Positions 3 to 23,474 of a stretch of DNA of 38,161 nucleotides are shown here, one piece after another (position 1 is the stretch's first letter; each line of letters opens with the position of its first letter). Source of the stretch: Dehalococcoidia bacterium. Lineage in GTDB: Bacteria; Chloroflexota; Dehalococcoidia; SZUA-161; SpSt-899. Made by a program: the position numbers and the translations under genes. The notes under the pieces are model-generated. The model worked only from the letters and a program-made list of their open reading frames with translations, made no database searches and was not told the origin of the DNA. The stretch is from contig JAQTRE010000016.1 of the NCBI GenBank assembly GCA_028711995.1, positions 1 to 38,161 on the forward strand, given 5' to 3'.

Positions 3-623
3 GATGGCTATGTGGGTGACGGAGACTATGTCAATGGCATGCGTCTCATCTTCTTTGCTGAGACGACCAACTCGGCCGGCAAATATGTATTCGGCAATGT
101 GGACATGAATAACACTCTGCCCGCCTCACGCTGGCACTACTACTATGGCAGCGGGAAATACTGGCCATCCACCAGCGGGCTTTCGGTAAAATGGGTCAAC
201 CAGATCAATATCTACCAACCCAATTTTTACACCTGCGATGACTCCGGTACCCCCAAAAGCGCTTTCACTCAAGGGGACACGGTGTATGTAACGGGCACTG
301 GGCCCCCGGCAAGTACCGAGTACCATGTATGGATACAGACGGACGATGTGCTGATGTCAACGCTCGATGCGATGGATCGTCCTCTCGGCGGTAGCTATAC
401 GCTCACCAGCGGTGACGATCCCTCGGACGAGCAGGAGGAAGTGACCACAAACGGCAGTGGAGCTATAGCAATTACGCCGATCTGGGAAACTGACGTCTTC
501 AGTCCTGTAGGTAACTATGAAGTTGTTGCCGACAACCAGTCATCCGGAACGCAAGGAACTTATGACTCCAACGATAAGTTGGATAACCCCGGATGGTGGG
601 GCTTTACCTTGGCCGCTCCCTGA
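3..623 (+). CDS. Secreted molybdopterin-fold-like protein, 3' part only
   Basis: The reading frame is open to the left edge of the window, so only the C-terminal part is present. The first residues (DGYVGDGDYVNGMRLIFF, then GKYVFGNVDMNNTLP and LSVKWVNQINIY) match the C-terminal half of the domain found in the 6503 and 15805 genes. That domain resembles the molybdopterin-binding domain of sulfite-oxidase-type proteins, which typically ends in a K-W-x-x-x-I strand. After it comes a beta-rich region (TQGDTVYVTGTG ... VGNYEVVADNQ) like the YVTG-type extracellular repeats of archaeal and Chloroflexota surface proteins. The gene ends in WWGFTLAAP with no dockerin and no membrane anchor. The fold assignment rests on family resemblance. 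Any catalytic role is unknown. Confidence 0.65.
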   Translation, partial: DGYVGDGDYVNGMRLIFFAETTNSAGKYVFGNVDMNNTLPASRWHYYYGSGKYWPSTSGLSVKWVNQINIYQPNFYTCDDSGTPKSAFTQGDTVYVTGTGPPASTEYHVWIQTDDVLMSTLDAMDRPLGGSYTLTSGDDPSDEQEEVTTNGSGAIAITPIWETDVFSPVGNYEVVADNQSSGTQGTYDSNDKLDNPGWWGFTLAAP

Positions 624-6502: not shown

Positions 6503-8335
6503 ATGAAGAATAGACTGGCTCTGGGATTTTTGAGCCTTGTATTGATGGCAGGCATAATCGTTGGCGGAGTATTATTCACTGCATCAGTGGAAGCTACCAG
6601 TGCAACAGCGTCGCTCCACATTGTGAAGTATGCCGCCGATGGCAGCACGGTGATTGGAGAGGCAACGGTTACCATTGCTGACTTGGAAACAGCCGAGGGA
6701 CACCCAGAGGTGCAGGGTGATGGCACTACCCACTATTTTACAGAAGGCCCCACGTTTGACCCGGCCAACCTGTGGGACCCGGATGAGACCTGCCCCGGCG
6801 ATAGTCTGAAGGATAAGGGGGCTCTAAAAGGCACCGCGCTCAATGACCTCTGCAATCTGGTTGGGGGAATGGCCGATGGCGACCAGGTCAACGTAATGGC
6901 CTCTGACGGCTACAACGAAACGTTTGACTATCCCAATGTTTACAATACCCTGACAGATCCCACCCTCAATTCCAGGCAGGGGCCGATGGTCATCAGCTGG
7001 TGGAAAGACGGGCAGTACAGCGGCAGCGGATGGAGCGATGGAATGCTGCTGGCCTTCTTCCCCACAGTGGGACGTACTTCCGACGGCAAACTGATATTCG
7101 GACACCAGGACATGCATGATTGCCTGCCCGAGCACAACTGGCATTACTACTACGATAACGCAATAGCGTATCCTTCCACCCATGGTCTCTACATCAAGTA
7201 CATCAAAGAAATCAGGATATTTACTGGTGGGGTCCAGGGGTGGACGGTTACCCTCTCCGGCGCTCGGAACGATGTCCTGACCAATACCTGGTTTGAAAAT
7301 GGAATCGCCTGCCATACTCCGCCCGCTAATCCGTTGGCGTTTACTTATACGGATACTGAGAATAATACGTGGAGTGGCCTGCCGCTCTGGTACGTTTGCG
7401 GTCTGGTTGATGACGACAACATCCATGGTCCCGGCTCCTTCAATGACGGCCTCTATTACAATGTCAAGGTCTCTGCTGTAGATGGCTACAGCTACACCTT
7501 TCCCAGCACTGACGTCGCCCGCAACAATGGCATGATTCTGGCCAACAAGCTCAACGGCGAGCCTTTGCCATCCGATAAATACCCCTTGAAATTGGTCAGC
7601 GCCTCCTTCACCAACGGCGGGCCGAGCGTTGCACAGATAGCTGAGATCAAACTACTGAACATTAGTACGACGCCGCCGACTCCCACTCCCACTCCGACTC
7701 TCGGTGTGGCAGACTGGCCTCTGCAACTGGTCGGGGCACAGTCGTACACCATGACCCAAGCAACTTTTGAAAGCGGTGCAGCTTGTCACCCAACAAGCTA
7801 TACCGACGATGACAGCAACGTCTGGAGCGGCATCCCCTTGTGGTTGCTGGCGGGTTGGGTGGACGACGATGTCCAGCATGGTGGAGGAGCATTTAATGAT
7901 GCCCTGGCAGCCACCAATTACCAGATAAAGGTTTGGGCAGCCGATGGTTACTCCTACACGTTTTATTCCGCTGCCGTCGCCCGAAACGATAATATTATCG
8001 TGGCCAATAAACTGAACGGGGCGGATCTGCCGCAATACACCGGGGATCCCGCCACACACCCCGCCTACCCCTTGAAAATTACAGGCCCGGCGACCGCCAG
8101 CGGCGACCGCATAGGCGGCATTGTTAAGATTGAACTCATCGGTCTTCCGTCCGGTCAACCGGAGTGGGACCTGAACGGCGATCACGTGTGTAATATTGGG
8201 GATGTGGTGAAGGTGGGGTTGCAATGGGGGCTGACCGGCATTCCCGGCTGGATTCCTGAAGACCTGAATAAGGACGGTAACATCAACATCGGGGATATCG
8301 TGGTGCTGGGCTTGCATTGGGGAGAAACGTGGTAG
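6503..8335 (+). CDS. Secreted protein with three molybdopterin-fold-like domains and a dockerin
   Basis: 610 aa with a signal peptide (about 1-32). Domain 1 (about 35-240) matches the 15805 protein (LHIVKYAADG, LNDLCNLVGGM, ASDGYNETFDY, IKYIKEIRI). Domains 2 (about 244-388) and 3 (about 402-550, after a PTPTPTPT linker) match each other and resemble the Oxidored_molyb domain: a Cys-His pair (ACH at 270-271 and 428-429), then WSGLPLW or WSGIPLW, AVDGYSYTF or AADGYSYTF, ANKLNG and a final I-x-I-x-L strand. In sulfite oxidase the Moco-ligand Cys lies just before the equivalent W-x-G motif, so these Cys residues could be metal ligands (inference). The dockerin (554-610: DLNGDHVCNIGD, DLNKDGNINIGD) predicts attachment to a cohesin. 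RBS ggaggga. It might instead be a non-catalytic binding module. Confidence 0.8.
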   Translation: MKNRLALGFLSLVLMAGIIVGGVLFTASVEATSATASLHIVKYAADGSTVIGEATVTIADLETAEGHPEVQGDGTTHYFTEGPTFDPANLWDPDETCPGDSLKDKGALKGTALNDLCNLVGGMADGDQVNVMASDGYNETFDYPNVYNTLTDPTLNSRQGPMVISWWKDGQYSGSGWSDGMLLAFFPTVGRTSDGKLIFGHQDMHDCLPEHNWHYYYDNAIAYPSTHGLYIKYIKEIRIFTGGVQGWTVTLSGARNDVLTNTWFENGIACHTPPANPLAFTYTDTENNTWSGLPLWYVCGLVDDDNIHGPGSFNDGLYYNVKVSAVDGYSYTFPSTDVARNNGMILANKLNGEPLPSDKYPLKLVSASFTNGGPSVAQIAEIKLLNISTTPPTPTPTPTLGVADWPLQLVGAQSYTMTQATFESGAACHPTSYTDDDSNVWSGIPLWLLAGWVDDDVQHGGGAFNDALAATNYQIKVWAADGYSYTFYSAAVARNDNIIVANKLNGADLPQYTGDPATHPAYPLKITGPATASGDRIGGIVKIELIGLPSGQPEWDLNGDHVCNIGDVVKVGLQWGLTGIPGWIPEDLNKDGNINIGDIVVLGLHWGETW

Positions 8336-8469
8336 TCATCTAATCATATCTAAAATGAAAGGAGGTGGATAGACAGGAATTTATTAGCAGAGTACACATG
8401 TTCAGTCTCAGACGCTTATCTAATTGTGTGTATTGTCAAAGAAATCGAAGCAAGATACGGAGGAAACAA

Positions 8470-10461
8470 TTGAAAAAGATGAACAGGAAAACGATCCTTG
8501 TTATGCTGGCCATATTGGCTGTTCTTGTGGCATTGCTGATTCCGGCGCTGCCGGCTGCCGCCGGATCAGGCTATTCACCTGTCACTGTCTGGTACGGCGC
8601 AAGTAGCGTTACTATCGACCAAACTACATGGGACACTCTGAAAGCTAGCTACGGGCAGACTATTACCGGTACCTACAATACTAATACCTATGAGTATAGC
8701 GGTGTACCTGTTTACCGGCTCTTGGAACAGATTACCGGCGTCAGCGCTCTCTCGGATTATAGTGCTCTTGTGGAGGACGGTTCAGCAACGCCATACCAGG
8801 TGCTTGTTGGACCGCACGCGTGTGATAACATACCTGTAAAAAGTAACGATACCCTCATTATCGCTGATAGTGGCACTCTCAATGGCAGCCCCGATACTAC
8901 CAGACTGCCAAGATTGGTTTGTCCATCCTTTACCGGCGGGGGTAAATACTACAATCAAAGCATTGTCAAAATAACACTAGTGTACACTATTTCAGTTTCC
9001 GCTCCCACTAACGGCACCATCAGTCCTTCAGGATATACGTGGAACACCAGTAGTACCAATCCCTGGAGTTCCGCAACTTCATCCGGTGCGGTTTATGTCA
9101 CCAACGGCGGCAGCCAGACCTTCACTATGGCAGGCAACACCGGTTACCACATATCAGCCTTAACCATAGATGGGGGAGCTGTCACTCCAGCTACCAGCTA
9201 CACCTTCAGCAATGTGACCGCCAATCACACTCTGGCTGCTACTTTCTCAGATTCCTCGGTCAGCGTCAGCATTACCCCGTCTTTCCAATCGGTAGCCAAT
9301 GGCACAACATTCAACGTCAGCCTGGCAATCGACACCAGTACAGCCTCACGTGGATGGCAGGCGAATGTGGACTTTGATGCAACCAAACTGTCTGCTAATA
9401 GTGTGACTGAAGGCACCTTCCTGAGCGCCTATGCTACCGCGAACGGCGGTGGTACTGTTTCTGGCGGCGCCGCTACAATTGACAACGTCGGTGGACATGT
9501 TGTCATACCCGGCTACGCCATTACTGGCGCAGGAACTGGCGGTCCCACGGGGACCGGAACCCTCTGCACCATTTCCTTCACCGCAAAACCTGCCGTCAAT
9601 AGTGCGGCCAGCATCACTCCATCGGCTGTTGTGGTTGCAGACGTGAATGGCACCGCCATTCCTGGCGTCACGCTTGCCGGAGGCACTGTCGCTATCGGCA
9701 CCTTGCCTCTGCCTGACCTGGTGGTTTCAGCCGCCTCAACAACGGCCGAAGCCAATCCTGCCATGTACACTGTTACCTATACCATTACCAATAACGGGGC
9801 CGATGCCGGTGCCAGCACTACCTCCATCAGCATTGATGGTGGCACTCCCATAACCGTTGCTTGTCCGGCTTTGGCTACAGGTGCGAGCGATACCCAGACG
9901 ACAGCTGCTCAGACACTCTCTGGCACAGCTGATTCCATCTTGATCACTGCCGATAGTGCCTTTGCTGTTGGCGAGAGCAATGAGAGCAACAATACCAGGA
10001 CCACCAGCTACTCTTATGCACCTGCTCAACCGGGTGATGTGCCGGTCAGCGGCACCACTCAGACGGTCCTGAATTTTGTCCTTCCTGATGCGGTTAGCTG
10101 GGATCCATTGAATATCGGCGATAACTCGGCTGATCGAACCATGAAGGTGACTTCCAACACGGACTGGCAGGTAACTGTCCTCGGTACCAATAATGGCTAC
10201 ATGACCAAGTACAACGGCACCATTTATGATCCTGCCGTCAAACTCCATGATGCCCTGCTCCTTATGTCCGAGAATACAGTCACTCTAACGGACTCGTCTC
10301 AGGTGCTGGCTGACGGTACCCCAGCTGGCCAGCCGTTGGATAATTCCGGTGACGCTCGCAGTGTGGCCTTCCACCAGCAGGTGTACTACGTAGATACTGC
10401 CTTGCCCAGCGGTTCTTACTACTATGTAGTAGTGACCTTTACTGCTTCCCAGACAATATAG
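8470..10461 (+). CDS. Secreted multidomain cohesin protein (molybdopterin-fold-like, InlB-like, cohesin, CARDB)
   Basis: I chose the TTG start at 8470 because GGAGG lies 6 nt upstream; the in-frame ATG at 8479 is too far from it, and 5' extension gives an implausible N-terminus. The product is 663 aa. It has a signal peptide (ending PALPAAAG), a molybdopterin-fold-like domain (about 34-172: VTVWYGASSVTI, YSGVPVYRLLEQITGV), an InlB-like repeat (about 176-258), a cohesin (about 263-413: GTTFNVSLAIDTSTASRGWQ, VTEGTFL, GYAITGAGTGGPTGTGTL) and a CARDB domain (about 414-518: LPDLVVSA, YTITNNGADAGA, VGESNESNNT). A beta-rich C-terminal domain of unknown type (about 519-663) follows. No anchor is visible, so it may be a free adaptor. 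This cohesin lacks the Cys pair found in the other two. Confidence 0.82.
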   Translation: MKKMNRKTILVMLAILAVLVALLIPALPAAAGSGYSPVTVWYGASSVTIDQTTWDTLKASYGQTITGTYNTNTYEYSGVPVYRLLEQITGVSALSDYSALVEDGSATPYQVLVGPHACDNIPVKSNDTLIIADSGTLNGSPDTTRLPRLVCPSFTGGGKYYNQSIVKITLVYTISVSAPTNGTISPSGYTWNTSSTNPWSSATSSGAVYVTNGGSQTFTMAGNTGYHISALTIDGGAVTPATSYTFSNVTANHTLAATFSDSSVSVSITPSFQSVANGTTFNVSLAIDTSTASRGWQANVDFDATKLSANSVTEGTFLSAYATANGGGTVSGGAATIDNVGGHVVIPGYAITGAGTGGPTGTGTLCTISFTAKPAVNSAASITPSAVVVADVNGTAIPGVTLAGGTVAIGTLPLPDLVVSAASTTAEANPAMYTVTYTITNNGADAGASTTSISIDGGTPITVACPALATGASDTQTTAAQTLSGTADSILITADSAFAVGESNESNNTRTTSYSYAPAQPGDVPVSGTTQTVLNFVLPDAVSWDPLNIGDNSADRTMKVTSNTDWQVTVLGTNNGYMTKYNGTIYDPAVKLHDALLLMSENTVTLTDSSQVLADGTPAGQPLDNSGDARSVAFHQQVYYVDTALPSGSYYYVVVTFTASQTI

Positions 10462-11803: not shown

Positions 11804-13387
11804 TTGTTGAAGATATCTGGAAAACGGCAATTAGTCATAAGCATCCTATTGCTCCTGATCCTGGGCGGTTCATTCGTGATAGCTCACGAGTTGGCTGTAG
11901 CGTCTGGTAGTGGCATGAGCATATCCCCAGCAGCGCAGACAGTAAGTCCGGGGGAAAGTTTTGATATCGTTGTAACGTTGAACACGGATACTCCATCCAG
12001 GGGAGGGCAGTGCTCCCTGAACTTCAATGCCGCCTTGGTGCAGTGCAATGGTGTAACTGAAGGGAGTTTTTATCATAGTTGGGTTCAATCCCATGGCGGG
12101 TCTGCCGTGGTCTTCCCTCAGCCGGTGATCCACAATGATGCCGGCCGGGTTACCGATGTGGGCATTGCCATCATGGGTGGAGGAACTGGCGGGCCTTCCG
12201 GCAGTGGTGAGTTTTGCATTTATCATATGACCGCAAAGACGGGAGTTACCGGGACTTCAGTTATCGTCTTGTCTAATGTGGTGCTTACGAACCAGAGTGG
12301 AAAGAGCGTATCCAGTCCCACTGTAAATAATGGGCAAGTACTCGTTATTTCACCGTCGACCGTAACTGCACCCCCAATGACATCCCCGGCTGTGCCCAGG
12401 CCTTCGTCTACAACGCCTGTACCTCCAACGAAAACCACGGATACAGTCAACCCATCGACTGAGACTGCACTTCCGCCACTCACGCCTACAGTGACACCAA
12501 CTCAGGAAAGTGATTCCCAGCCCACCGTTATTGACCTGTCTGCTACGGTGAATTCCGAGGGCGTTTTGCAGATGAGCGTTGACCAAGGAGACATCCGGTA
12601 CGGTGAGAACGGGTGGACGCTCAGGCTGGAGATTGGAACTGGTGCAAGGGCACTGACAAAAGACGGGGAACCGTTACAGGCGATAACCATACAGCCCAAT
12701 GCAACACCATCCCCACCGCCGTCCGGCAAGCGTCTTGTGGGGTTTGCTATCGATCTTGGCCCACCCGGGGCAATCTTTAGTCCGCCGATGAGCGCTATCT
12801 TCAATTACGATCCCAACTTGCTTCCCCGGGGTGTCAAATCAAGCGAATTGATCCTGGCCTATTTTGACGCTCAAAAGGGAGAGTGGATCGAGTGCAACTA
12901 TGTGGCTGATCCGAAAAGTCATAGCATCACAGGGTACATTGACCACTTCACTACTTTTTCCATACTGGCCAGGGAGAACAAGGGTATAGGTTGGAGTCTC
13001 GCTGCTATTATCATACTGTCAGAGTTGGTGGTGGCAGCGATCGTGATATTTTTCATTGTGCGGAGAAGGCGCTCTTCGGTTAGAGCGGCAATCTCACCCC
13101 AAACACCGAGTTCAACTGCGCTTAGCTCGGCGGAGAGGAAAGTGATTGCCGGAGATTCGCAGGCAGACTCATTATCAAGCAGGGCGAAGTTCGCAAATGC
13201 CGCCATCAAAACCCGAATTGAGACTACAACCGGTAAACTGGTATTTACAAGTCAGGACAAGCTGCCGTCGAACATAGAGATAGTCAACGCGTCGGGCTGC
13301 GATCTGGTTGTCTCGGTGGAATATGACCCTGAATTGTATCCGGAAGGCGTCACCAAAATCACTGTGGTTGAAAAGGAATCGCAATGA
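11804..13387 (+). CDS. Membrane-anchored cohesin protein with cytoplasmic tail
   Basis: 527 aa from a TTG start with GAGAG 6 nt upstream. A signal/anchor segment (about 6-30) is followed by a cohesin (about 36-185: GMSISPAAQTVSPGESFDIV, TPSRGGQCSLNF, GVTEGSFYHSW, GIAIMGGGTGGPSGSGEF). A Pro/Thr linker (about 186-240) and a beta domain (about 240-390: VGFAIDLGPPGAIFSPP, ITGYIDHFTTFSIL) resembling the domain near the C-terminus of archaeal PGF-pre-PGF surface proteins come next. One transmembrane helix (about 396-418) and VRRRR stop transfer follow. About 105 residues then lie in the cytoplasm, including IETTTGKLVFTSQDKLPSNI. This is a good candidate for the cell-surface anchor that holds the dockerin proteins. 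The inside tail is unusual for a scaffoldin and could sense or report binding. Confidence 0.82.
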   Translation: MLKISGKRQLVISILLLLILGGSFVIAHELAVASGSGMSISPAAQTVSPGESFDIVVTLNTDTPSRGGQCSLNFNAALVQCNGVTEGSFYHSWVQSHGGSAVVFPQPVIHNDAGRVTDVGIAIMGGGTGGPSGSGEFCIYHMTAKTGVTGTSVIVLSNVVLTNQSGKSVSSPTVNNGQVLVISPSTVTAPPMTSPAVPRPSSTTPVPPTKTTDTVNPSTETALPPLTPTVTPTQESDSQPTVIDLSATVNSEGVLQMSVDQGDIRYGENGWTLRLEIGTGARALTKDGEPLQAITIQPNATPSPPPSGKRLVGFAIDLGPPGAIFSPPMSAIFNYDPNLLPRGVKSSELILAYFDAQKGEWIECNYVADPKSHSITGYIDHFTTFSILARENKGIGWSLAAIIILSELVVAAIVIFFIVRRRRSSVRAAISPQTPSSTALSSAERKVIAGDSQADSLSSRAKFANAAIKTRIETTTGKLVFTSQDKLPSNIEIVNASGCDLVVSVEYDPELYPEGVTKITVVEKESQ

Positions 13388-13586: not shown

Positions 13587-13704
13587 GACTTCATCAGAGC
13601 TTTCTTAGCATACAGATGGGCGGAACAACGGACACATGGTAGGGGGATGTGTTTCTGATCGCCTGATTGGAATCGCAGTTCAATATTGTTTGAGGAGAAG
13701 TGAA

Positions 13705-14226
13705 TTGAATCTAATAGTTACTAAACGGGAGGCTATCGAAATAAGCCTTCTAAGCGCTATCTTATTAAGCACGTTACTTGTGTTGGCGTCATGTGGCACA
13801 TCTTCATCTCCGTCCGAGGCGGGTGCTGCCATCAATCCCATCAGCAGAGATGTGCGCATTGGTGATACGTTCACTTTCGATGTGCTGATAGATACTGAAG
13901 TCCCCTCGCGCGGGGCTCAGTGCACTCTCACTTTTGATCCGAAGATGACAAGATGCGACGGGGTAACCGAGGGCGATTTCTATAGAGATTGGGCATCTGC
14001 CAACGGGTGCACCGCCGTTCTTTTCCCGGGGCCTGTCATTGATAATGAAAACGGGCAAGTCTCAAGCATTGGCATCGCTATCCTGGGCACTCAGGAAGGT
14101 GGCGCGAAGGGAAAAGGGGTGTTATTCAGTTATCATTTTACAGCCATTGCCGATGGAGTGGCGGCGCCGACCCTTTCGAACGTAGTCATAACTGACCAAT
14201 CAGGCAACGCATTAAAAAAACAATGA
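13705..14226 (+). CDS. Cohesin-domain lipoprotein
   Basis: 173 aa from a TTG start with GAGGAG 7 nt upstream. A hydrophobic segment ends in the lipobox LASC (Cys about 30), so the protein should be lipid-anchored on the outer face of the membrane. The rest is a single cohesin (about 40-173: INPISRDVRIGDTFTFDVLI, VPSRGAQCTLTFDP, CDGVTEGDFYRDW, GIAILGTQEGGAKGKG). It is closely related to the cohesin of the 11804 gene, including two shared Cys residues (QC and RC or QC, 11 residues between them). The C-terminus ends right after the domain. With no other domain, its role is probably simple surface tethering of one dockerin protein, perhaps the phosphoesterase encoded 24 bp downstream. Confidence 0.85.
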   Translation: MNLIVTKREAIEISLLSAILLSTLLVLASCGTSSSPSEAGAAINPISRDVRIGDTFTFDVLIDTEVPSRGAQCTLTFDPKMTRCDGVTEGDFYRDWASANGCTAVLFPGPVIDNENGQVSSIGIAILGTQEGGAKGKGVLFSYHFTAIADGVAAPTLSNVVITDQSGNALKKQ

Positions 14227-14250: not shown

Positions 14251-15639
14251 TTGAAAATGCGTATGAATAGATGGATTGGGAACCGTGTCGGCGTCTTCTT
14301 GCTGGCGGTGATGGCATCTATCATGCTGGTCTCTTTTGTGTCAACAGCACCGGCCGCAGCCCAGTTAGAACCGCTAGCTTTGATGTGGGGCCCTTACATC
14401 ACCGGGACTACGGCAACCAGTGTTGTCATCAACGCAAAGACCAGCGAGCCGACAACCATGAACCTGGAATGGGCTACCGATGCCTATTACAATGAGCATC
14501 ACAGCTATCCTTGGGCAGCGGCACACACTGATCCCGATACGATGCACAACTTCCCGCTCACGGGGCTTGAATCGGACACGGTCTATCACTACCGGCTGAA
14601 TGATGGCGCCGGTTTTTCTGATGATTATCACTTCCGCACTTTCCCCACTTCAGGTCCATTTACCTTCATAGTCTATGGGGACACTCAGGACCAGTTGCCA
14701 TCATTCAGCCAGTATGAACGGTATAAGCTGGTTGCCGATGCTGTGGCTGCGGAACAGGATATCGCATTTGTGCTTCATTGCGGAGACCTGGTGAACAATG
14801 GCAATGAAATTACTGACTGGGACCGCTACTTCGATGTCAGTCGCCAGCTGATGGCGAACACGACAGTCTACCCGGCACTGGGTAATCATGAAAAGAACAG
14901 CGCTCTCTTCTATGGTGCCTTCGGGATTGCGCCATACTACTCTTTTGATTGTGGCGATGCTCACTTTACCGTGCTCGACAGCATCAATACCAGTGATACC
15001 GAGGCTGCCTGGCTGGGTAGCGACCTCGATAACAGCAAGCCCTGGAAATTCGTGTCATTCCATTATCCGATGTACACTTCTGACCCCAATCATTTCGGTG
15101 GCTGGGCTAATCTTCAGGAAGAATGGGAGGATCTGTTCCAGACGCATGATGTAGCGGCTGTCTGGAATGGGCATATCCATGCCTATGAGCACTATCTGGA
15201 AAACGGCATCCACTATGCTGTGATGGGAACAGGGGGCGGTCCGCCGGGCCTGCTCAATCCGACAAAGTACGAAGGCTACCAGAACAGTCTGGAAAACAGC
15301 ATGGCATACGCGAAGGTTAGAATAAACCCTCCCGGCAACACTGCCACAGTGCAGATTATTCGCGTTGCGGACATTTCTGCCGACGGTACCCAGGTAACGA
15401 CCACGTACCCACCGGGTACGGTCTATGATACCTTCGTAATGATTTTGCCAGGGACTCAGCCGCAATGGGACCTGAATGGCGACCACATCTGCAATATCGG
15501 GGATGTAGTGAAAGTGGGGTTGAAGTGGGGATTGACCGGTAATCCCGGCTGGATTTCAGAAGATGTGAATACAGACGGAGTGATCAATATATCGGATGTG
15601 GCAGCAATCGGTTTGCATTGGGGAGATACCTGGCAGTGA
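14251..15639 (+). CDS. Secreted metallophosphoesterase (purple acid phosphatase-like) with dockerin
   Basis: 462 aa from a TTG start with GAGG 7 nt upstream. A signal peptide (about 1-37, ending in APAAAQ) is followed by a fibronectin-like N-terminal domain (about 42-130: GPYITGTTATSVVINAKT, Y-H-Y-R-L). The calcineurin-type catalytic domain (about 133-340) has all metal motifs: GDTQ, GDLVNN, GNHE, the His in SFHYPMY, and GHIHAYEH. This layout matches bacterial purple acid phosphatase-like enzymes, which hydrolyse phosphate esters outside the cell; the PAP-type Tyr of GDxxY is absent (GDLVN). The dockerin (about 405-462: DLNGDHICNIGD, DVNTDGVINISD) predicts docking on a cohesin. The substrate is unknown. 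Confidence 0.88.
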   Translation: MKMRMNRWIGNRVGVFLLAVMASIMLVSFVSTAPAAAQLEPLALMWGPYITGTTATSVVINAKTSEPTTMNLEWATDAYYNEHHSYPWAAAHTDPDTMHNFPLTGLESDTVYHYRLNDGAGFSDDYHFRTFPTSGPFTFIVYGDTQDQLPSFSQYERYKLVADAVAAEQDIAFVLHCGDLVNNGNEITDWDRYFDVSRQLMANTTVYPALGNHEKNSALFYGAFGIAPYYSFDCGDAHFTVLDSINTSDTEAAWLGSDLDNSKPWKFVSFHYPMYTSDPNHFGGWANLQEEWEDLFQTHDVAAVWNGHIHAYEHYLENGIHYAVMGTGGGPPGLLNPTKYEGYQNSLENSMAYAKVRINPPGNTATVQIIRVADISADGTQVTTTYPPGTVYDTFVMILPGTQPQWDLNGDHICNIGDVVKVGLKWGLTGNPGWISEDVNTDGVINISDVAAIGLHWGDTWQ

Positions 15640-15804: not shown

Positions 15805-16683
15805 ATGCTAAAGAAATTACTGTTACCAGTCTTCTCCATCTTGGTTCTCCTGTCAATTCTCACGGTTCAATTATTCTTGGCATCTCCGGCGCTGGCAGCC
15901 GGAGCCACCACCGAGGTGCACATCGTCAAATATGCACATGATGGCGTCACCGTGATCGCCGAAAAGACGGTCACCTACGAATGGATGAAAGCGAACTTGC
16001 ATGTCTATGGAGACGGCAATATCCACTATTATCATCAAGGCCCTATTTTTGAAGGCGATCTCTGGGATCCGGATGAGATCAACAACCTCAAGGACAAGGG
16101 CGCGGTGCAGGGTTCCAGCGTCAAAGACCTGTGCGACACGGTGGGTGGGATGAGCCCCGGCGATGAAGTGATGATGGTGGCGGTTGATGCATGGCATACC
16201 GAGTTTGCCTATTCGAACATCTATGAGCCGCTGGATCGGCAAGGGATCATTGCCCTTTGCTGGTTTAATGGGGAAGATGCGCTCATTGGGGAACGCTACG
16301 GCGAGGGTTATCCCGCCAAGAATGGCTATAGTACAGCTCTTCAAATCGTGTTCATGGCCGGGACCCCCAATCCGGAAGGCAAATATGTGTTCGGCAATAC
16401 CGATATGAAAATGGCCTTGCCGGAAGAGAAATACCAGCATTTCTACGAAGGCCTCTATCCCAGCACCAACGGGCTTTCCGGCAAATGGATTAAGGAGATA
16501 AGAATCTACAGCGGCGGCATCGATCCGAATCTGAAGATTGAACTCAAGTCGGATAGCGCTTCCGCGGGTGATGATGACGACGATGACTCGACGCCCTGGA
16601 TTCCCATCGTGCTGGGAGTGGTAGGTCTGACTTTCATCGGCGTGACTGGCTATGTTTGGATAAAGGGGAGAAAAGAGGCATGA
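15805..16683 (+). CDS. Membrane-anchored molybdopterin-fold-like protein
   Basis: 292 aa with a signal peptide (about 1-32). The extracellular domain (about 34-235) matches domain 1 of the 6503 gene and the partial gene at the left edge: VHIVKYAHDG, LWDPDE, VKDLCDTVGGM, GKYVFGNTDMKMALPE and LSGKWIKEIRIYSGG. The last strand is the K-W-x-x-x-I seen at the end of Oxidored_molyb domains. No Cys lies before the GSSVKDL motif, so the usual thiolate ligand seems absent. An acidic stretch of Asp residues (about 252-260) precedes a transmembrane helix (about 264-287) and a short GRKEA tail. The stop overlaps the next start (ATGA), so the two genes are translationally coupled and stand immediately upstream of wtpABC. 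Confidence 0.75.
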   Translation: MLKKLLLPVFSILVLLSILTVQLFLASPALAAGATTEVHIVKYAHDGVTVIAEKTVTYEWMKANLHVYGDGNIHYYHQGPIFEGDLWDPDEINNLKDKGAVQGSSVKDLCDTVGGMSPGDEVMMVAVDAWHTEFAYSNIYEPLDRQGIIALCWFNGEDALIGERYGEGYPAKNGYSTALQIVFMAGTPNPEGKYVFGNTDMKMALPEEKYQHFYEGLYPSTNGLSGKWIKEIRIYSGGIDPNLKIELKSDSASAGDDDDDDSTPWIPIVLGVVGLTFIGVTGYVWIKGRKEA

Positions 16684-17255
16684 AAACCAAGATTATTGCC
16701 GCAGTAGGTATATTGCTTATTCTTGCATCGGTGCTGGTTTATCTTGAGCCTTGGGAAGAAGATACGAACGGAGATGACATCGACTGGCAGCTTAACATTA
16801 CCGGGCCCAACGGTGCCCAGGAAATCCTGAGTTATGATGAAATCAAGCATTTGCCTGCCTATGAGGGATTTGGGGGATATTTCACCACCACCGGCTTGAT
16901 CTATGGCCCCTACGAAGTGAAGGGTGTCTTATTGACCGATCTCTGTGACCTTGTTGGCGGCGTTACACCGGAGGATGTTGTCTTCGTGTCAGCCATCGAT
17001 GGATATTCGTCCGTCTACGATTATGACCGGGTGTTGGGGAATTTCGATACCTATGATCCTGATACGATGGAGGTCGTCTCTCACGGAGAATCTAGGCTCG
17101 TTCTGATGTACGAACAAAACGGCAAGCCCCTGAGCTATGATGACGGCCAACCGTTGCGAATCGCTCGGATAGGACCTGATGACAAACTCCTCATCGAGGG
17201 GCAATACTGGGTCAAGTGGGTGGATGGGATAGAGGTTGAGAAGCTGGAGGAGTGA
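16680..17255 (+). CDS. Membrane-tethered molybdopterin-binding-domain-like protein
   Basis: 191 aa. The start is the ATG that overlaps the previous stop. An N-terminal hydrophobic segment (about 4-24) should act as an uncleaved anchor or signal. The rest is one compact domain with the clearest Oxidored_molyb signature in the window: YGPYEVKGVLLTDLCDLVGG, VSAIDGYSSVYDYD, LVLMYEQNGKPLSYDDGQPL and WVKWVDGIEVEKL. These correspond to the G-V-x-L, ADGY, NG-x-PL-x-x-x-x-G-x-PLR and K-W-V-x-x-I-E-V elements of the family. No candidate Cys ligand precedes the G-V-L-L motif. It lies 54 bp before wtpA, and such pairing suggests a role with tungstate or molybdate, or with the cofactor that uses it (inference). 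Confidence 0.78.
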   Translation: MKTKIIAAVGILLILASVLVYLEPWEEDTNGDDIDWQLNITGPNGAQEILSYDEIKHLPAYEGFGGYFTTTGLIYGPYEVKGVLLTDLCDLVGGVTPEDVVFVSAIDGYSSVYDYDRVLGNFDTYDPDTMEVVSHGESRLVLMYEQNGKPLSYDDGQPLRIARIGPDDKLLIEGQYWVKWVDGIEVEKLEE

Positions 17256-17309: not shown

Positions 17310-18368
17310 ATGAACACAAGAAATCGATGGGTGAGTTTTGTCGCTTTAGCGGCCATTCTGCTTTCGGCCTTTTCCGGGGGCGGATGCGGATCTTCTCACA
17401 AAACGACGCTCAAGGTTATCAATGCCGATAGCCTGATGGTTCCTTTCACTGCCATAGAGAAGGCGTTTGAAGAACGGCATCCGGATGTCGATGTGCTTAT
17501 TGAAGGGCATGGCAGCATTCAGGCCATCCGGCACGTGACCGAGCTGTATCATGAGTTTGATGTGATCGCAGTGGCCGATTGGTCTCTCCTGCCCATGATG
17601 ATGTATGATAAGCCGATGCCGGATACCAATATTCCCTATGCCGATTGGTATGTGAAATTCGGCACCAACCGGCTGGGTCTGGCATACAAACCCTCCGGCA
17701 AATACGCCGACGAAATCAACAGCTCCAACTGGTATGAGGTGATATCGAGATCGAACGTCAAAGTCGGCACTTCCGATCCCCAGTTTGATTCCTGCGGATA
17801 CCGGGCCCTGATGATGTGCCAGTTGGCGGAACTCTACTACAATGACGACACCATTTTCGAGAAGGTCATGGGTGATTTCTCACCCAAAGTCTCGGTGACC
17901 TCAGATAATGGGAAATACACCATTTCTTTACCGGCAACGGCGCGATCCAAGAGGTTGACCGTTCGGGGATCAAGTATAGGGCTTCTGGCTACCATCGATA
18001 GCGGCGATATCGACTATGCCTTCATGTATGAGAGCATGGCCCAGCAGCACGGGCTGAAGTTTGTTGAACTGCCGCCGGAGATCGACCTGAGTTCGCCGGA
18101 TTATGCGGATTCCTACGGGAAAGTCACCTGCAGCCTTTCCTTCCAGCGCTTTGCAACGGTGATCCCCGAATTTCGTGGAGAGCGTATTCTCTATGCTATG
18201 ACCATTCCCAAGAATGCTCCACACCCTGATGTAGCGGCGGAATTTGTGGCGTTCGTGCTTTCACCGGAGGGGTGCGAGGTGCTTTCTAAGGCATATCAGC
18301 CATCCCTGATCCCGCCGATTGTCGACAGACCGGAGAACGCGCCTGCGCTGGTGACGTCGCCTTCGTGA
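17310..18368 (+). CDS. wtpA: Tungstate/molybdate ABC transporter substrate-binding lipoprotein
   Basis: 352 aa. The lipobox SGGGC (Cys 26) makes this a lipoprotein. The mature part is a periplasmic-binding-type protein of the WtpA/ModA family: VINADSLMVPFTAIEKAFEE, then GHGSIQAIRHVTEL, DVIAVADWSLLPMMM, FGTNRLGLAYKP and GTSDPQFDSCGYRALMM, in which DPCGYRS-like signatures mark the WtpA branch. It should capture tungstate or molybdate outside the membrane and pass it to the permease encoded next. The choice between the two oxyanions cannot be made from sequence alone. RBS gtgagg. The gene belongs to an operon with wtpB and wtpC and follows two molybdopterin-fold-like genes. Confidence 0.88.
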   Translation: MNTRNRWVSFVALAAILLSAFSGGGCGSSHKTTLKVINADSLMVPFTAIEKAFEERHPDVDVLIEGHGSIQAIRHVTELYHEFDVIAVADWSLLPMMMYDKPMPDTNIPYADWYVKFGTNRLGLAYKPSGKYADEINSSNWYEVISRSNVKVGTSDPQFDSCGYRALMMCQLAELYYNDDTIFEKVMGDFSPKVSVTSDNGKYTISLPATARSKRLTVRGSSIGLLATIDSGDIDYAFMYESMAQQHGLKFVELPPEIDLSSPDYADSYGKVTCSLSFQRFATVIPEFRGERILYAMTIPKNAPHPDVAAEFVAFVLSPEGCEVLSKAYQPSLIPPIVDRPENAPALVTSPS

Positions 18369-18374
18369 ATCCTT

Positions 18375-18403
18375 GTAGGGGCGGGTTTCAAACCCGCCCC
18401 TAC
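18375..18403. repeat. GTAG-bounded REP-type palindrome
   Basis: gtaggggcgggttt and its exact reverse complement are separated by one base, a 14-bp stem from GTAG to CTAC. It lies between wtpA and the likely wtpB start, inside an in-frame upstream extension of wtpB. Its hairpin could reduce expression of wtpB and wtpC relative to wtpA. Confidence 0.8.
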
Positions 18404-18418
18404 TGGAGATCAAAACAA

Positions 18419-19213
18419 TTGACGAGATTCCTTTCAACCCACAAGTTCACAATCGTCTTCGCCGCGCTGGGGCTGGTCATCCTGCTCTTCATTTTGGTCC
18501 CTCTGCTGAAAATGGTGTTCGCCTCCAGCCCCGGCGATGTGCTCGATGCCCTGCTTGATGATAAAGAGGTCAGAGATGCCATCTGGCTAACCCTCTACGC
18601 GTCGTTTATCTCAGCGGCAGTGGGGATGATCTTCGGAGTGCCGCTGGCCTATCTCCTGGCCCGCCGCGATTTCCCCGGAAAGAAGGTGGTCGAGGCCATT
18701 ATCGATCTGCCGGTGGTGATCCCTCACACGGCGGCGGGTATTGCCCTCCTGTTCGTATTCGGCTCCAATTTCTTCGGCGGCCAATTCTTTCATGCTTTTG
18801 GATTGGACTTTTTCGATGCGGTGCCCGGCATCGTCATTGCCATGATGTTCGTCAGCATCCCGTTTCTGATCAACGCCGCCAAAGAGGGATTCAAGAGCGT
18901 CGACCCCAGACTGGAGAAGGTGGCCCGAACGCTGGGCGCCTCTCCCCGGCAAACCTTCTTTCAGGTGTCTTTGCCCCTGGCGGGGAGAAGTATCATGTCG
19001 GGTGGGGTGATGATGTGGGCCAGAGGGGTGAGCGAGTTCGGCGCAGTAATTATCATCGCTTACTATCCCATGATCGCCCCGACGCTGGTTTATCAACGTT
19101 ATGAGACGCAGGGACTGGATGGTGCCAGGAACGTTGCGGTCGTGCTGCTTCTGGTCTGTCTGGCGATCTTCATCGCCTTGAGATACCTCACCCAGAAAGG
19201 CGGCCGGCCTTGA
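18419..19213 (+). CDS. wtpB: Tungstate/molybdate ABC transporter permease
   Basis: 264 aa from the TTG at 18419, which has GGAG 10 nt upstream. The frame stays open back to a GTG at 18365, but that stretch is only the REP palindrome, so I reject it. The protein has about six transmembrane helices and the ABC permease signature EGFKSVDPRLEKVARTLGAS followed by Q-x-F-x-x-V-x-L-P-L-A, where the EAA loop contacts the ATPase. LIDLPVVIPHTAAGIAL-type and WARGVSEFGAVIIIAYYP segments are typical of the ModB/WtpB branch. It forms the membrane channel of the importer. The stop overlaps the wtpC start (TTGA). Confidence 0.88.
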   Translation: MTRFLSTHKFTIVFAALGLVILLFILVPLLKMVFASSPGDVLDALLDDKEVRDAIWLTLYASFISAAVGMIFGVPLAYLLARRDFPGKKVVEAIIDLPVVIPHTAAGIALLFVFGSNFFGGQFFHAFGLDFFDAVPGIVIAMMFVSIPFLINAAKEGFKSVDPRLEKVARTLGASPRQTFFQVSLPLAGRSIMSGGVMMWARGVSEFGAVIIIAYYPMIAPTLVYQRYETQGLDGARNVAVVLLLVCLAIFIALRYLTQKGGRP

Positions 19214-20256
19214 TTGACATAAAGAACATCAGTGTCCGCCTGGGAGATTTCCGCCTTCAGAATATTACCCTTAACATTCAAAAGGGGGAGTATTTTGTCC
19301 TGCTGGGTCCGACGGGAGCGGGCAAAACGGCCCTAATTGAAACCATTGCCGGGCTGAACCCGGTGACGCAAGGACAGATACGGCTCGACGGAGTCGAAGT
19401 GACCCATGTAGCGCCGGAGAAGCGAGGCATCAGTATTGCCTATCAGGATCAGGCCCTCTTTCCGCACCTTTCAGTGCTGGGAAATATCGCCTTTGGATTG
19501 CGCCAGAGGGGGCTATCGAAGTCCGAAGCGGCAACGCAATCGCAGTGGGTGATTGATCTGCTGGGAGTCTCTCACCTCTTGGAGCGCAAGCCGGATACGT
19601 TGAGTGGTGGGGAAAGCCAGAGAGTGGTTCTGGCCCGCGCCCTGGCGGTCCAACCCAAGGTGCTGTTGCTGGATGAGCCGCTCAGCGCGCTGGACCCTGA
19701 GACAAGGGAAAAGGTACAGCAAGAGATACTTCTGCTGCATCGAAAGCTGGGATTGACCATCATCCACGTGACCCACGATTTCGAGGAAGCGTTCTCTATG
19801 GGAGACCGGATCGCCGTTCTCGACCGGGGAGTTCTGGCCCAGGTGGGAACCGTTGATGAAGTCTTTCGCCAGCCCAACTCCGAGTTCGTGGCCCGCTTTC
19901 TGATGGCGCGTAACATCTTCAGCGGCGATATCCGGGATGGCGAGGGAATGCACCCGATGATGCACATCCAGGGCTTGAAAGTGCCCGTGACCACTTCCCT
20001 GCGAGGTGAGCGCCATGTCTCCATCCGCCCGGAAGATGTTCTCCTCTCCGCCAAACCGATGGCCGATGATACCCGCGTTTCTTTTCAGGGGCGCGTCACT
20101 TCCGTTTCAAACAAGGGATCGGTGGTCTATGTCTCGGTGAATGTGCCCCCGGAGTTTGTCTGCCTGCTCACCCGTCGGGAGTTCGAGATGATGCGCCTGG
20201 CGGAGGGGGAAGAGGTGTTCGTGGGATTTGAGATCAAGGCCCTGCACGTCTTCTGA
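19210..20256 (+). CDS. wtpC: Tungstate/molybdate ABC transporter ATP-binding protein
   Basis: 348 aa from a TTG overlapping the wtpB stop. Walker A is GPTGAGKTALIE, the signature is LSGGESQRVVLARAL and Walker B is VLLLDEPLSALD, followed by the His-switch THD. The C-terminal about 110 residues form a TOBE-type regulatory domain (HVSIRPEDVLLS, then VTSVSNKGSVVYVSVNVPPE), as in ModC/WtpC/PotA-type importers, where it can bind the oxyanion and inhibit transport. It powers WtpA-WtpB uptake. The end (VGFEIKALHVF) is partly duplicated about 680 bp downstream as a remnant. Substrate choice comes from context. Confidence 0.88.
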   Translation: MIDIKNISVRLGDFRLQNITLNIQKGEYFVLLGPTGAGKTALIETIAGLNPVTQGQIRLDGVEVTHVAPEKRGISIAYQDQALFPHLSVLGNIAFGLRQRGLSKSEAATQSQWVIDLLGVSHLLERKPDTLSGGESQRVVLARALAVQPKVLLLDEPLSALDPETREKVQQEILLLHRKLGLTIIHVTHDFEEAFSMGDRIAVLDRGVLAQVGTVDEVFRQPNSEFVARFLMARNIFSGDIRDGEGMHPMMHIQGLKVPVTTSLRGERHVSIRPEDVLLSAKPMADDTRVSFQGRVTSVSNKGSVVYVSVNVPPEFVCLLTRREFEMMRLAEGEEVFVGFEIKALHVF

Positions 20257-22898: not shown

Positions 22899-22923
22899 GC
22901 ATGGCCGATGTCGGCCATGCCTA
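22896..22923. repeat. REP-type palindrome spanning the pyrB stop
   Basis: taggcatggccga and tcggccatgccta form 13-bp arms around tg. A GTAG starts at 22895. The core TGGCCGA/TCGGCCA is shared with the palindrome inside the downstream RAYT gene. It includes the pyrB TAG stop and ends 14 bp before the likely transposase start. Confidence 0.85.
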
Positions 22924-22937
22924 TTGCCGATAGGAAA

Positions 22938-23474
22938 ATGAAGGTTCATCAGAATCTGCCGAAGTTTAATGACACTTCCTATGCGCATTTTGTCACCACG
23001 AGGACTTATGAAAGCTATCCCTGTTTCAAGAACGAAAAGCTTGCCGGGATTCTGCATGAAGAGTTGGTGTTTTACGCTGAGAGATATGGATTTCACCTGC
23101 TGGGTTATGTGATCATGCCGGATCATCTCCACGCGTTGATTTGGTGGGATGCGGAAGCAAAGCCGGAGTTGGCGATATCGAAGATCATGAATAGCATCAA
23201 AACGATGACCAGTAAAAGAGTCAAAAGGCAATTGTTTTACGGCGATGGCGCTGAATACAAGGGTAGCTTGGCCGACGTCGGCCAAGCTACCCCAAGGCAC
23301 TTCCATCTGTGGCAGCCCGGTTTCTATGATTTCAATATCTATACCGAGGGAAAACTCTGGGAGAAACTCGAATACATGCACGGAAATCCGGTGAAGGCTG
23401 GTTTAGCTTCCACTCCATCAGATTATTGCTGGTCCAGCTACAAGGACTACGCTGAAGGGAGCGAAGGCCTTTGA
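22938..23474 (+). CDS. REP-associated tyrosine transposase (RAYT, Y1_Tnp family)
   Basis: 178 aa from the ATG at 22938 (preceded by tagga); an in-frame ATG at 22908 lies inside the palindrome and is less likely. It has the IS200/IS605-like HUH signature MPDHLHALIWW (His-x-His of HUH) and the downstream helix with the nucleophile region GFYDFNIYTEGKLWEKLEYM, where the Tyr is probably Y in FYDF or NIY. HGNPVKAGL and YCWSSYKDY are hallmarks of the RAYT family, which processes REP single-strand hairpins. A 32-bp perfect palindrome inside the gene encodes an extra in-frame segment around GSLADVGQATP. The stop overlaps the next gene start (TTGA). It interrupts a pyr block. Confidence 0.88.
   Translation: MKVHQNLPKFNDTSYAHFVTTRTYESYPCFKNEKLAGILHEELVFYAERYGFHLLGYVIMPDHLHALIWWDAEAKPELAISKIMNSIKTMTSKRVKRQLFYGDGAEYKGSLADVGQATPRHFHLWQPGFYDFNIYTEGKLWEKLEYMHGNPVKAGLASTPSDYCWSSYKDYAEGSEGL
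23261..23292. repeat. Perfect 32-bp REP-type palindrome inside the RAYT gene
   Basis: The left arm is gggtagcttggccgac and the right arm is its exact reverse complement. GTAG begins at 23263 and CTAC ends at 23290. It preserves the reading frame and codes for about ten residues. It shares the TGGCCGA/TCGGCCA core with the palindrome at 22896. Confidence 0.93.

Follow-up and report, generated by a model that had tools for sequence, protein, structure and literature searches.

In methanogenic consortia, tungsten and molybdenum are limiting for the metabolism of formate and aldehydes; to our knowledge the known uptake of both metals starts at an ABC binding protein. Four kinds of described system come closest to the locus analyzed here, which lies in a 38,161-nucleotide contig of a Dehalococcoidia bacterium (JAQTRE010000016.1, assembly GCA_028711995.1; the entire contig is referred to as the window). 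PruR (7kos, 7kp2, 7kom, and 7rkb; PruR-DcpA in Agrobacterium) functions in signaling (PMC13259868) and shares with the domains of this locus the character of a small secreted SUOX-fold domain without the molybdenum-ligand cysteine. The locus differs from PruR in the tandem arrangement of the domains on large surface proteins, in a Cys-His-His set and in the partners, which are an importer and a phosphoesterase rather than a c-di-GMP enzyme or kinase; pterin binding is putative here. Sulfite oxidase and MsrP (YedY), which belong to PF00174, resemble the domains in their fold and partly in sequence signature, but the domains contain no cysteine at the ligand position and those of the ACH (Ala-Cys-His) type lack the V-K-W element. 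The tungstate ABC transporter WtpABC is represented in the window by a complete set of genes; the other Dehalococcoidia WtpA loci that were viewed mostly have the order B-C-A and no SUOX-fold partners, whereas a larger surface module is found here. Finally, the locus resembles cohesin–dockerin (cellulosome-type) assemblies in its dockerin-like tails and cohesin-like neighbors, but among the cluster proteins scanned none was identified as a glycoside hydrolase and most of the matches are below the Pfam cut-off.

A sequence-only reading of the window had described the protein encoded at 6503..8335 as a dockerin protein with three tandem molybdopterin-fold-like domains, two of them with a Cys-His pair at the position of the Moco ligand. 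The features of this protein are as follows.

6503..8335, + strand: secreted surface protein of 610 amino acids, with a signal peptide (amino acids 1-32, by eye), three SUOX/PruR-fold domains and a dockerin-like tail
6599..7225, + strand: domain 1, without ACH, of the family of the 15805 protein; AlphaFold2 pLDDT 93, top PDB match PruR 7kom
7226..7675, + strand: domain 2, ACH type, with Cys270, His271, and His308 and a PF00174 match
7310..7315, + strand: Cys270-His271 codons of domain 2
7424..7426, + strand: His308 codon of domain 2 (VDDDNIH), completing the Cys-His-His set
7700..8161, + strand: domain 3, ACH type, with Cys428, His429, and His459; AlphaFold2 pLDDT 90, resembles sulfite oxidase, YedY, and PruR
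7784..7789, + strand: Cys428-His429 codons of domain 3
7877..7879, + strand: His459 codon of domain 3 (VDDDVQH), completing the Cys-His-His set
8162..8332, + strand: dockerin-like tail with two Ca-binding-loop repeats

The ACH motif occurs exactly twice in the protein (0.014 occurrences are predicted from its composition), in both cases ahead of WSG(L/I)PLW as had been read (Trp290 in domain 2 and Trp441 in domain 3), and is kept in homologs across three phyla. Domains 2 and 3 are duplicates with 49% identity and the two occurrences therefore represent a single homologous feature. The dockerin-like tail contains the two calcium-loop repeats, but its Dockerin_1 score (14 bits) is below the Pfam cut-off of 22.9 bits. 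A similar tail on the open reading frame at 962 passes the cut-off with 28 bits.

The fold of the domains was examined by structure prediction. AlphaFold2, fed with 88 homologous domains, returned a model of domain 3 with a pLDDT of 90 and a pTM of 0.87 for which Foldseek identified sulfite dehydrogenase/oxidase and YedY (E approximately 5e-5 to 1e-3, query-length TM approximately 0.6) together with PruR (7kos, 7kp2, and 7rkb, TMt 0.6–0.67), which is of similar size. Domain 1 is not recognized by Pfam, and the sole Foldseek match of its model with E < 0.001 was the Vibrio vulnificus PruR 7kom (TMt 0.71); PruR is the best size match for both domains. A Pfam scan of the open reading frame placed PF00174 above the cut-off in domain 2 only, and PDB sequences gave nothing useful against domains 2 and 3 as single-sequence queries. 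Judged by the models, the domains almost certainly adopt the SUOX/PruR fold, in agreement with the three tandem domains of the sequence-only reading. Domains 1–3 all belong to the short, PruR-like kind of SUOX fold, and each of the three domain types is truncated in the manner of PruR and lacks the Moco cysteine. A separate family without ACH is made up of domain 1 and the 15805 protein. As had been proposed, the domain occurs at the locus in two kinds, of which one has the Cys-His feature. A segment of domain 1 (window 6824-6962) resembles NF041762, a GEGP diheme protein that may hold a similar domain. Attachment of heme at GxACH, read as a degenerate CxxCH, had been prompted as a candidate by the NF041762 match and was rejected based on the variable gap between Cys and His (0–5 residues).

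The position of the ACH cysteine was compared with that of the Moco ligand in the MsrP-like protein encoded by the same genome (L001, LDCVEGW), whose cysteine aligns with the YedY cysteine (RCVEAW). A local HMM alignment to MsrP reached the second half only and the comparison is accordingly based on a global alignment, which places the W-x-G motif imperfectly, and on secondary structure. In the global profile alignment the ACH motif falls on AHH of L001, nine residues upstream of the ligand cysteine, and the ligand cysteine itself falls on an Asp of YTDDD in the ACH domains. In the AlphaFold2 model of domain 3 the cysteine (Cys29 in domain numbering) ends a helix (20-29) ahead of a short strand (32-35), and it is the far end of that strand that carries the ligand cysteine in MsrP and YedY. 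No cysteine was found at this position, where the strand preceding W-x-G ends, in the profile alignment or in the model. Within the remaining signature of the ACH domains the Pro of PxR is invariant, the Arg is present in 65% and V-K-W is absent. The claim that the ACH cysteine occupies the Moco-ligand position is unsupported because the motif aligns nine residues early and the cysteine precedes the strand; based on alignment and model, this cysteine is very likely not the Moco ligand.

The cysteine, the following histidine and a histidine after V-D-D were compared in 140 homologous domains. A total of 132 contain all three residues (Cys, His within 0–5 residues and His in the loop after V-D-D), six lack the entire set and two have replaced the cysteine alone (by Gln or His) with both histidines kept. 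Co-occurrence of the triad yields a Fisher P of 3e-9 if relatedness is ignored, the tree containing two losses only. These losses of the whole set are independent and affect a clade of Dehalococcoidia and one Bacillota domain whose sisters keep the set. Loss as a unit combined with the flexible Cys-His gap argues that the three residues form one site, for which metal binding is the simplest explanation and is considered probable. By its pattern of conservation the Cys-His-His set is a putative new site on the SUOX fold, separate from the molybdenum-binding one. Two other explanations of the set were weighed. If domains 2 and 3 were Moco enzymes or Moco-binding domains with the ACH cysteine as thiolate ligand, the SUOX fold, which is real, and a conserved cysteine upstream of W-x-G would be expected, but this cysteine lies nine residues before the ligand position and ahead of the strand, its distance to the histidine ranges from 0 to 5 and the histidine after V-D-D varies along with the pair in a manner not expected of a Moco thiolate, two domains replace it while keeping both histidines, and V-K-W, an element of the Moco site, is missing, all of which makes this explanation very improbable. 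A structural zinc (or a similar ion) that braces the shortened domain, in proteins that mainly act as binders or scaffolds for another ligand, agrees with the variable Cys-His loop and the all-or-none loss; however, six domains are otherwise intact without the set, indicating that it is dispensable for the fold, and a bracing role is considered rather unlikely.

The surroundings of the protein contain further copies of the domain, putative scaffold proteins and a tungstate transporter.

12..623, + strand: second copy resembling domain 1 (its C-terminal part), at the edge of the window
8365..10461, + strand: surface protein with SUOX/PruR-like N-terminal region, cohesin-like middle and CARDB
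11804..13387, + strand: cohesin-like protein with a C-terminal TM segment (weak Pfam cohesin match)
13636..14226, + strand: small cohesin-like protein, possible lipoprotein
14251..15639, + strand: secreted metallophosphoesterase of the purple-acid-phosphatase type with a dockerin-like tail, conserved in related loci
15805..16683, + strand: p15805, domain-1-family protein with a C-terminal TM anchor, conserved module member
16680..17255, + strand: p16656, N-terminally anchored SUOX-fold protein that keeps GxPxR and WVKW and has no ligand cysteine
17310..18368, + strand: WtpA, tungstate-binding protein (TIGR03730 above cut-off, 313 versus 242.75 bits)
18365..19213, + strand: WtpB, permease (best match, slightly below the NCBIfam cut-off)
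19210..20256, + strand: WtpC, ATPase (best match, slightly below the NCBIfam cut-off)

Dockerin-like tails are present on four proteins (962, 3611, 6503, and 14251) and cohesin-like domains on three neighbors (8365, 11804, and 13636; weak matches, mostly below the Pfam cut-off), and the Pfam scan also identified PKD, CARDB, and beta-propeller domains in the cluster. This suggests that in this organism the binder and the phosphoesterase may be docked on an anchored scaffold via dockerin-like/cohesin-like pairs. The start codon of p16656 overlaps the stop codon of p15805 (ATGA). GxPxR and WVKW are invariant in the p16656 family, and its profile matches plant sulfite oxidase at 2.7e-7 over the region HGFPLR...VKW. 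Because it is the GxPxR and WVKW region that aligns with plant sulfite oxidase, p16656 looks like a pterin-pocket protein without the metal ligand. Matches of p16656 to TAL effectors were discarded as artefacts of summation over repeats. Loss of WVKW in the ACH domains goes along with the gain of Cys-His-His, and 74% of the domain-1 proteins have a Lys at the WVKW site. Pterin binding in PruR involves a Tyr and a Trp; DGY is common in the domains of this locus.

GTDB genomes were scanned with an alignment of four ACH-type domains, yielding 37 loci within the Methanomicrobiales, syntrophic Bacillota (Pelotomaculum, Syntrophomonas, Desulfotomaculaceae, and others) and the Dehalococcoidia; no viral relatives were found. 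The comparison of the module is based on MAG-derived loci, which are not independent since gene adjacency is inherited. The order phosphoesterase, p15805, p16656, WtpA recurs in the Methanomicrobiales, the Dehalococcoidia, and one of the Bacillota, and the phosphoesterase is part of the module at most loci. In two cases (L055:9905-12757 and L056:1331-4258) a domain-1 SUOX fold is fused to the phosphoesterase. Of 150 genomes from the archaeal order to which locus L012 belongs, 56 contain the p16656 gene, and WtpA adjoins it in all 30 Methanomicrobiales loci examined. Among the Dehalococcoidia p16656 was found in 4 of 393 genomes, with WtpA adjacent in three and the contig ending in the fourth. 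At the ACH loci p16656 adjoins WtpA in every assessable genome (Chloroflexota, archaea, and one of the Bacillota). Loci of Pelotomaculum and the Desulfotomaculaceae have TupA pairs (L016 and L020) or ModABC (L023) in the place of WtpABC, and in the Bacillota locus L025 WtpABC stands beside a giant protein. The occurrence of three types of tungsten/molybdenum importer at the same kind of locus argues that the ligand concerns tungsten or molybdenum, and the link between the module and the transport of these metals is strong.

The giant proteins of the Bacillota contain four ACH domains in a conserved order. Four-ACH giants were also observed in the Methanoregulaceae (L015, L018, and L033), and their domains match those of the Bacillota position by position. 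The sequence comparison is pointing to a possible horizontal transfer of giant proteins between methanogens and syntrophs. Many of the Bacillota loci with giant proteins have no tungsten/molybdenum importer within 10 kb and have an ECF transporter or ExbB/DUF2149 instead, and one Bacillota locus adjoins hypB/hypF (nickel); given these neighbors, the ligand at those loci may not be tungsten or molybdenum. The ECF S unit at L021:16986-18068 and its homologs at L016, L019, L020, L023, L027, and L042 belong to PF09819 ("cobalt" type), possibly carry a C-terminal SUOX-like domain (weak PF00174 match) and are encoded beside the giant proteins together with genes for the ECF T unit and a double ATPase. 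A MotA/ExbB proton-channel gene followed by DUF2149 is found at L027:5337-6320, L028:1957-2932, and seven further Bacillota loci, suggesting a putative ExbBD-like energized step in mostly monoderm bacteria.

Based on sequence comparison, a role of the module in tungsten/molybdenum acquisition is likely, and it is fairly probable that the 6503 protein is the extracellular binding component of the acquisition apparatus. The SUOX-fold domains, held by dockerins on cohesin-bearing anchors in this organism, would bind tungsten or molybdenum species at the cell surface, with either the oxyanion or metal seated at Cys-His-His or a pterin-bound cofactor occupying the former pterin pocket. The secreted phosphoesterase would trim a phosphorylated ligand, and membrane-anchored p16656 would hand the ligand or the released metal to WtpA. 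Capture of a pterin-bound form is possible although not the favored outcome; cofactor capture, a hypothesis, would explain the fold, the phosphoesterase and the importer together. More tentatively still, and on balance doubtful, the module might serve extracellular salvage of tungsto- or molybdopterin cofactor, in which SUOX-fold surface proteins capture cofactor that neighboring cells release, the phosphoesterase trims it and importers take up the metal (by WtpABC, TupA, or ModABC), the system being traded horizontally between syntrophs and methanogens. In the Bacillota the pterin would perhaps enter via the ECF transporter with the possible SUOX-like domain on its S unit.

An acquisition role competes with two readings of the surface proteins that dispense with metal supply. 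As redox or pterin sensors in the manner of PruR-DcpA they would account for PruR, a signaling protein, being the best structural match, but the annotated genes of the window include neither a DcpA/DTB regulator nor a sensor-kinase partner and the partners that recur with them are an importer and a phosphoesterase, leaving a sensory function quite improbable. The PKD, CARDB, beta-propeller, and cohesin/dockerin neighbors would also fit general surface or adhesion modules that stand near WtpABC through shared ancestry only; this is judged improbable given that the order p15805-p16656-WtpA is held in three phyla and two domains of life and that unrelated tungsten/molybdenum importers replace WtpABC.

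The SUOX-fold/importer module occurs in methanogenic archaea as well as in the bacteria living alongside them and, under the acquisition reading, probably helps to capture scarce tungsten or molybdenum or their cofactor. It was not found described in the literature searched, a search that covered sources other than subscription journals. If the reading is correct, a conserved surface stage with the fold of a pterin enzyme ahead of the ABC binding protein would represent a new layer of trace-metal biology and offer a candidate function for many proteins labeled only "molybdopterin-dependent oxidoreductase".

In keeping with the acquisition reading, the source genome is a heavy user of tungsten and molybdenum, as judged by six AOR-type genes and several molybdopterin oxidoreductase genes. 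Two molybdopterin oxidoreductase genes of this genome (C125:3653-4918 and C159:5110-5640) contain an in-frame TGA and are possibly selenoprotein formate dehydrogenases. No Rfam element was identified in the window, and hence no Moco/Tuco riboswitch. A REP-associated tyrosine transposase (window 22908-23474) is located amid biosynthesis genes, with pyrR and pyrB before it and hisF and carB after it. Furthermore, contig C127 of the same genome (L059) carries another cluster, in which three genes of the domain-1 type are arranged in tandem.
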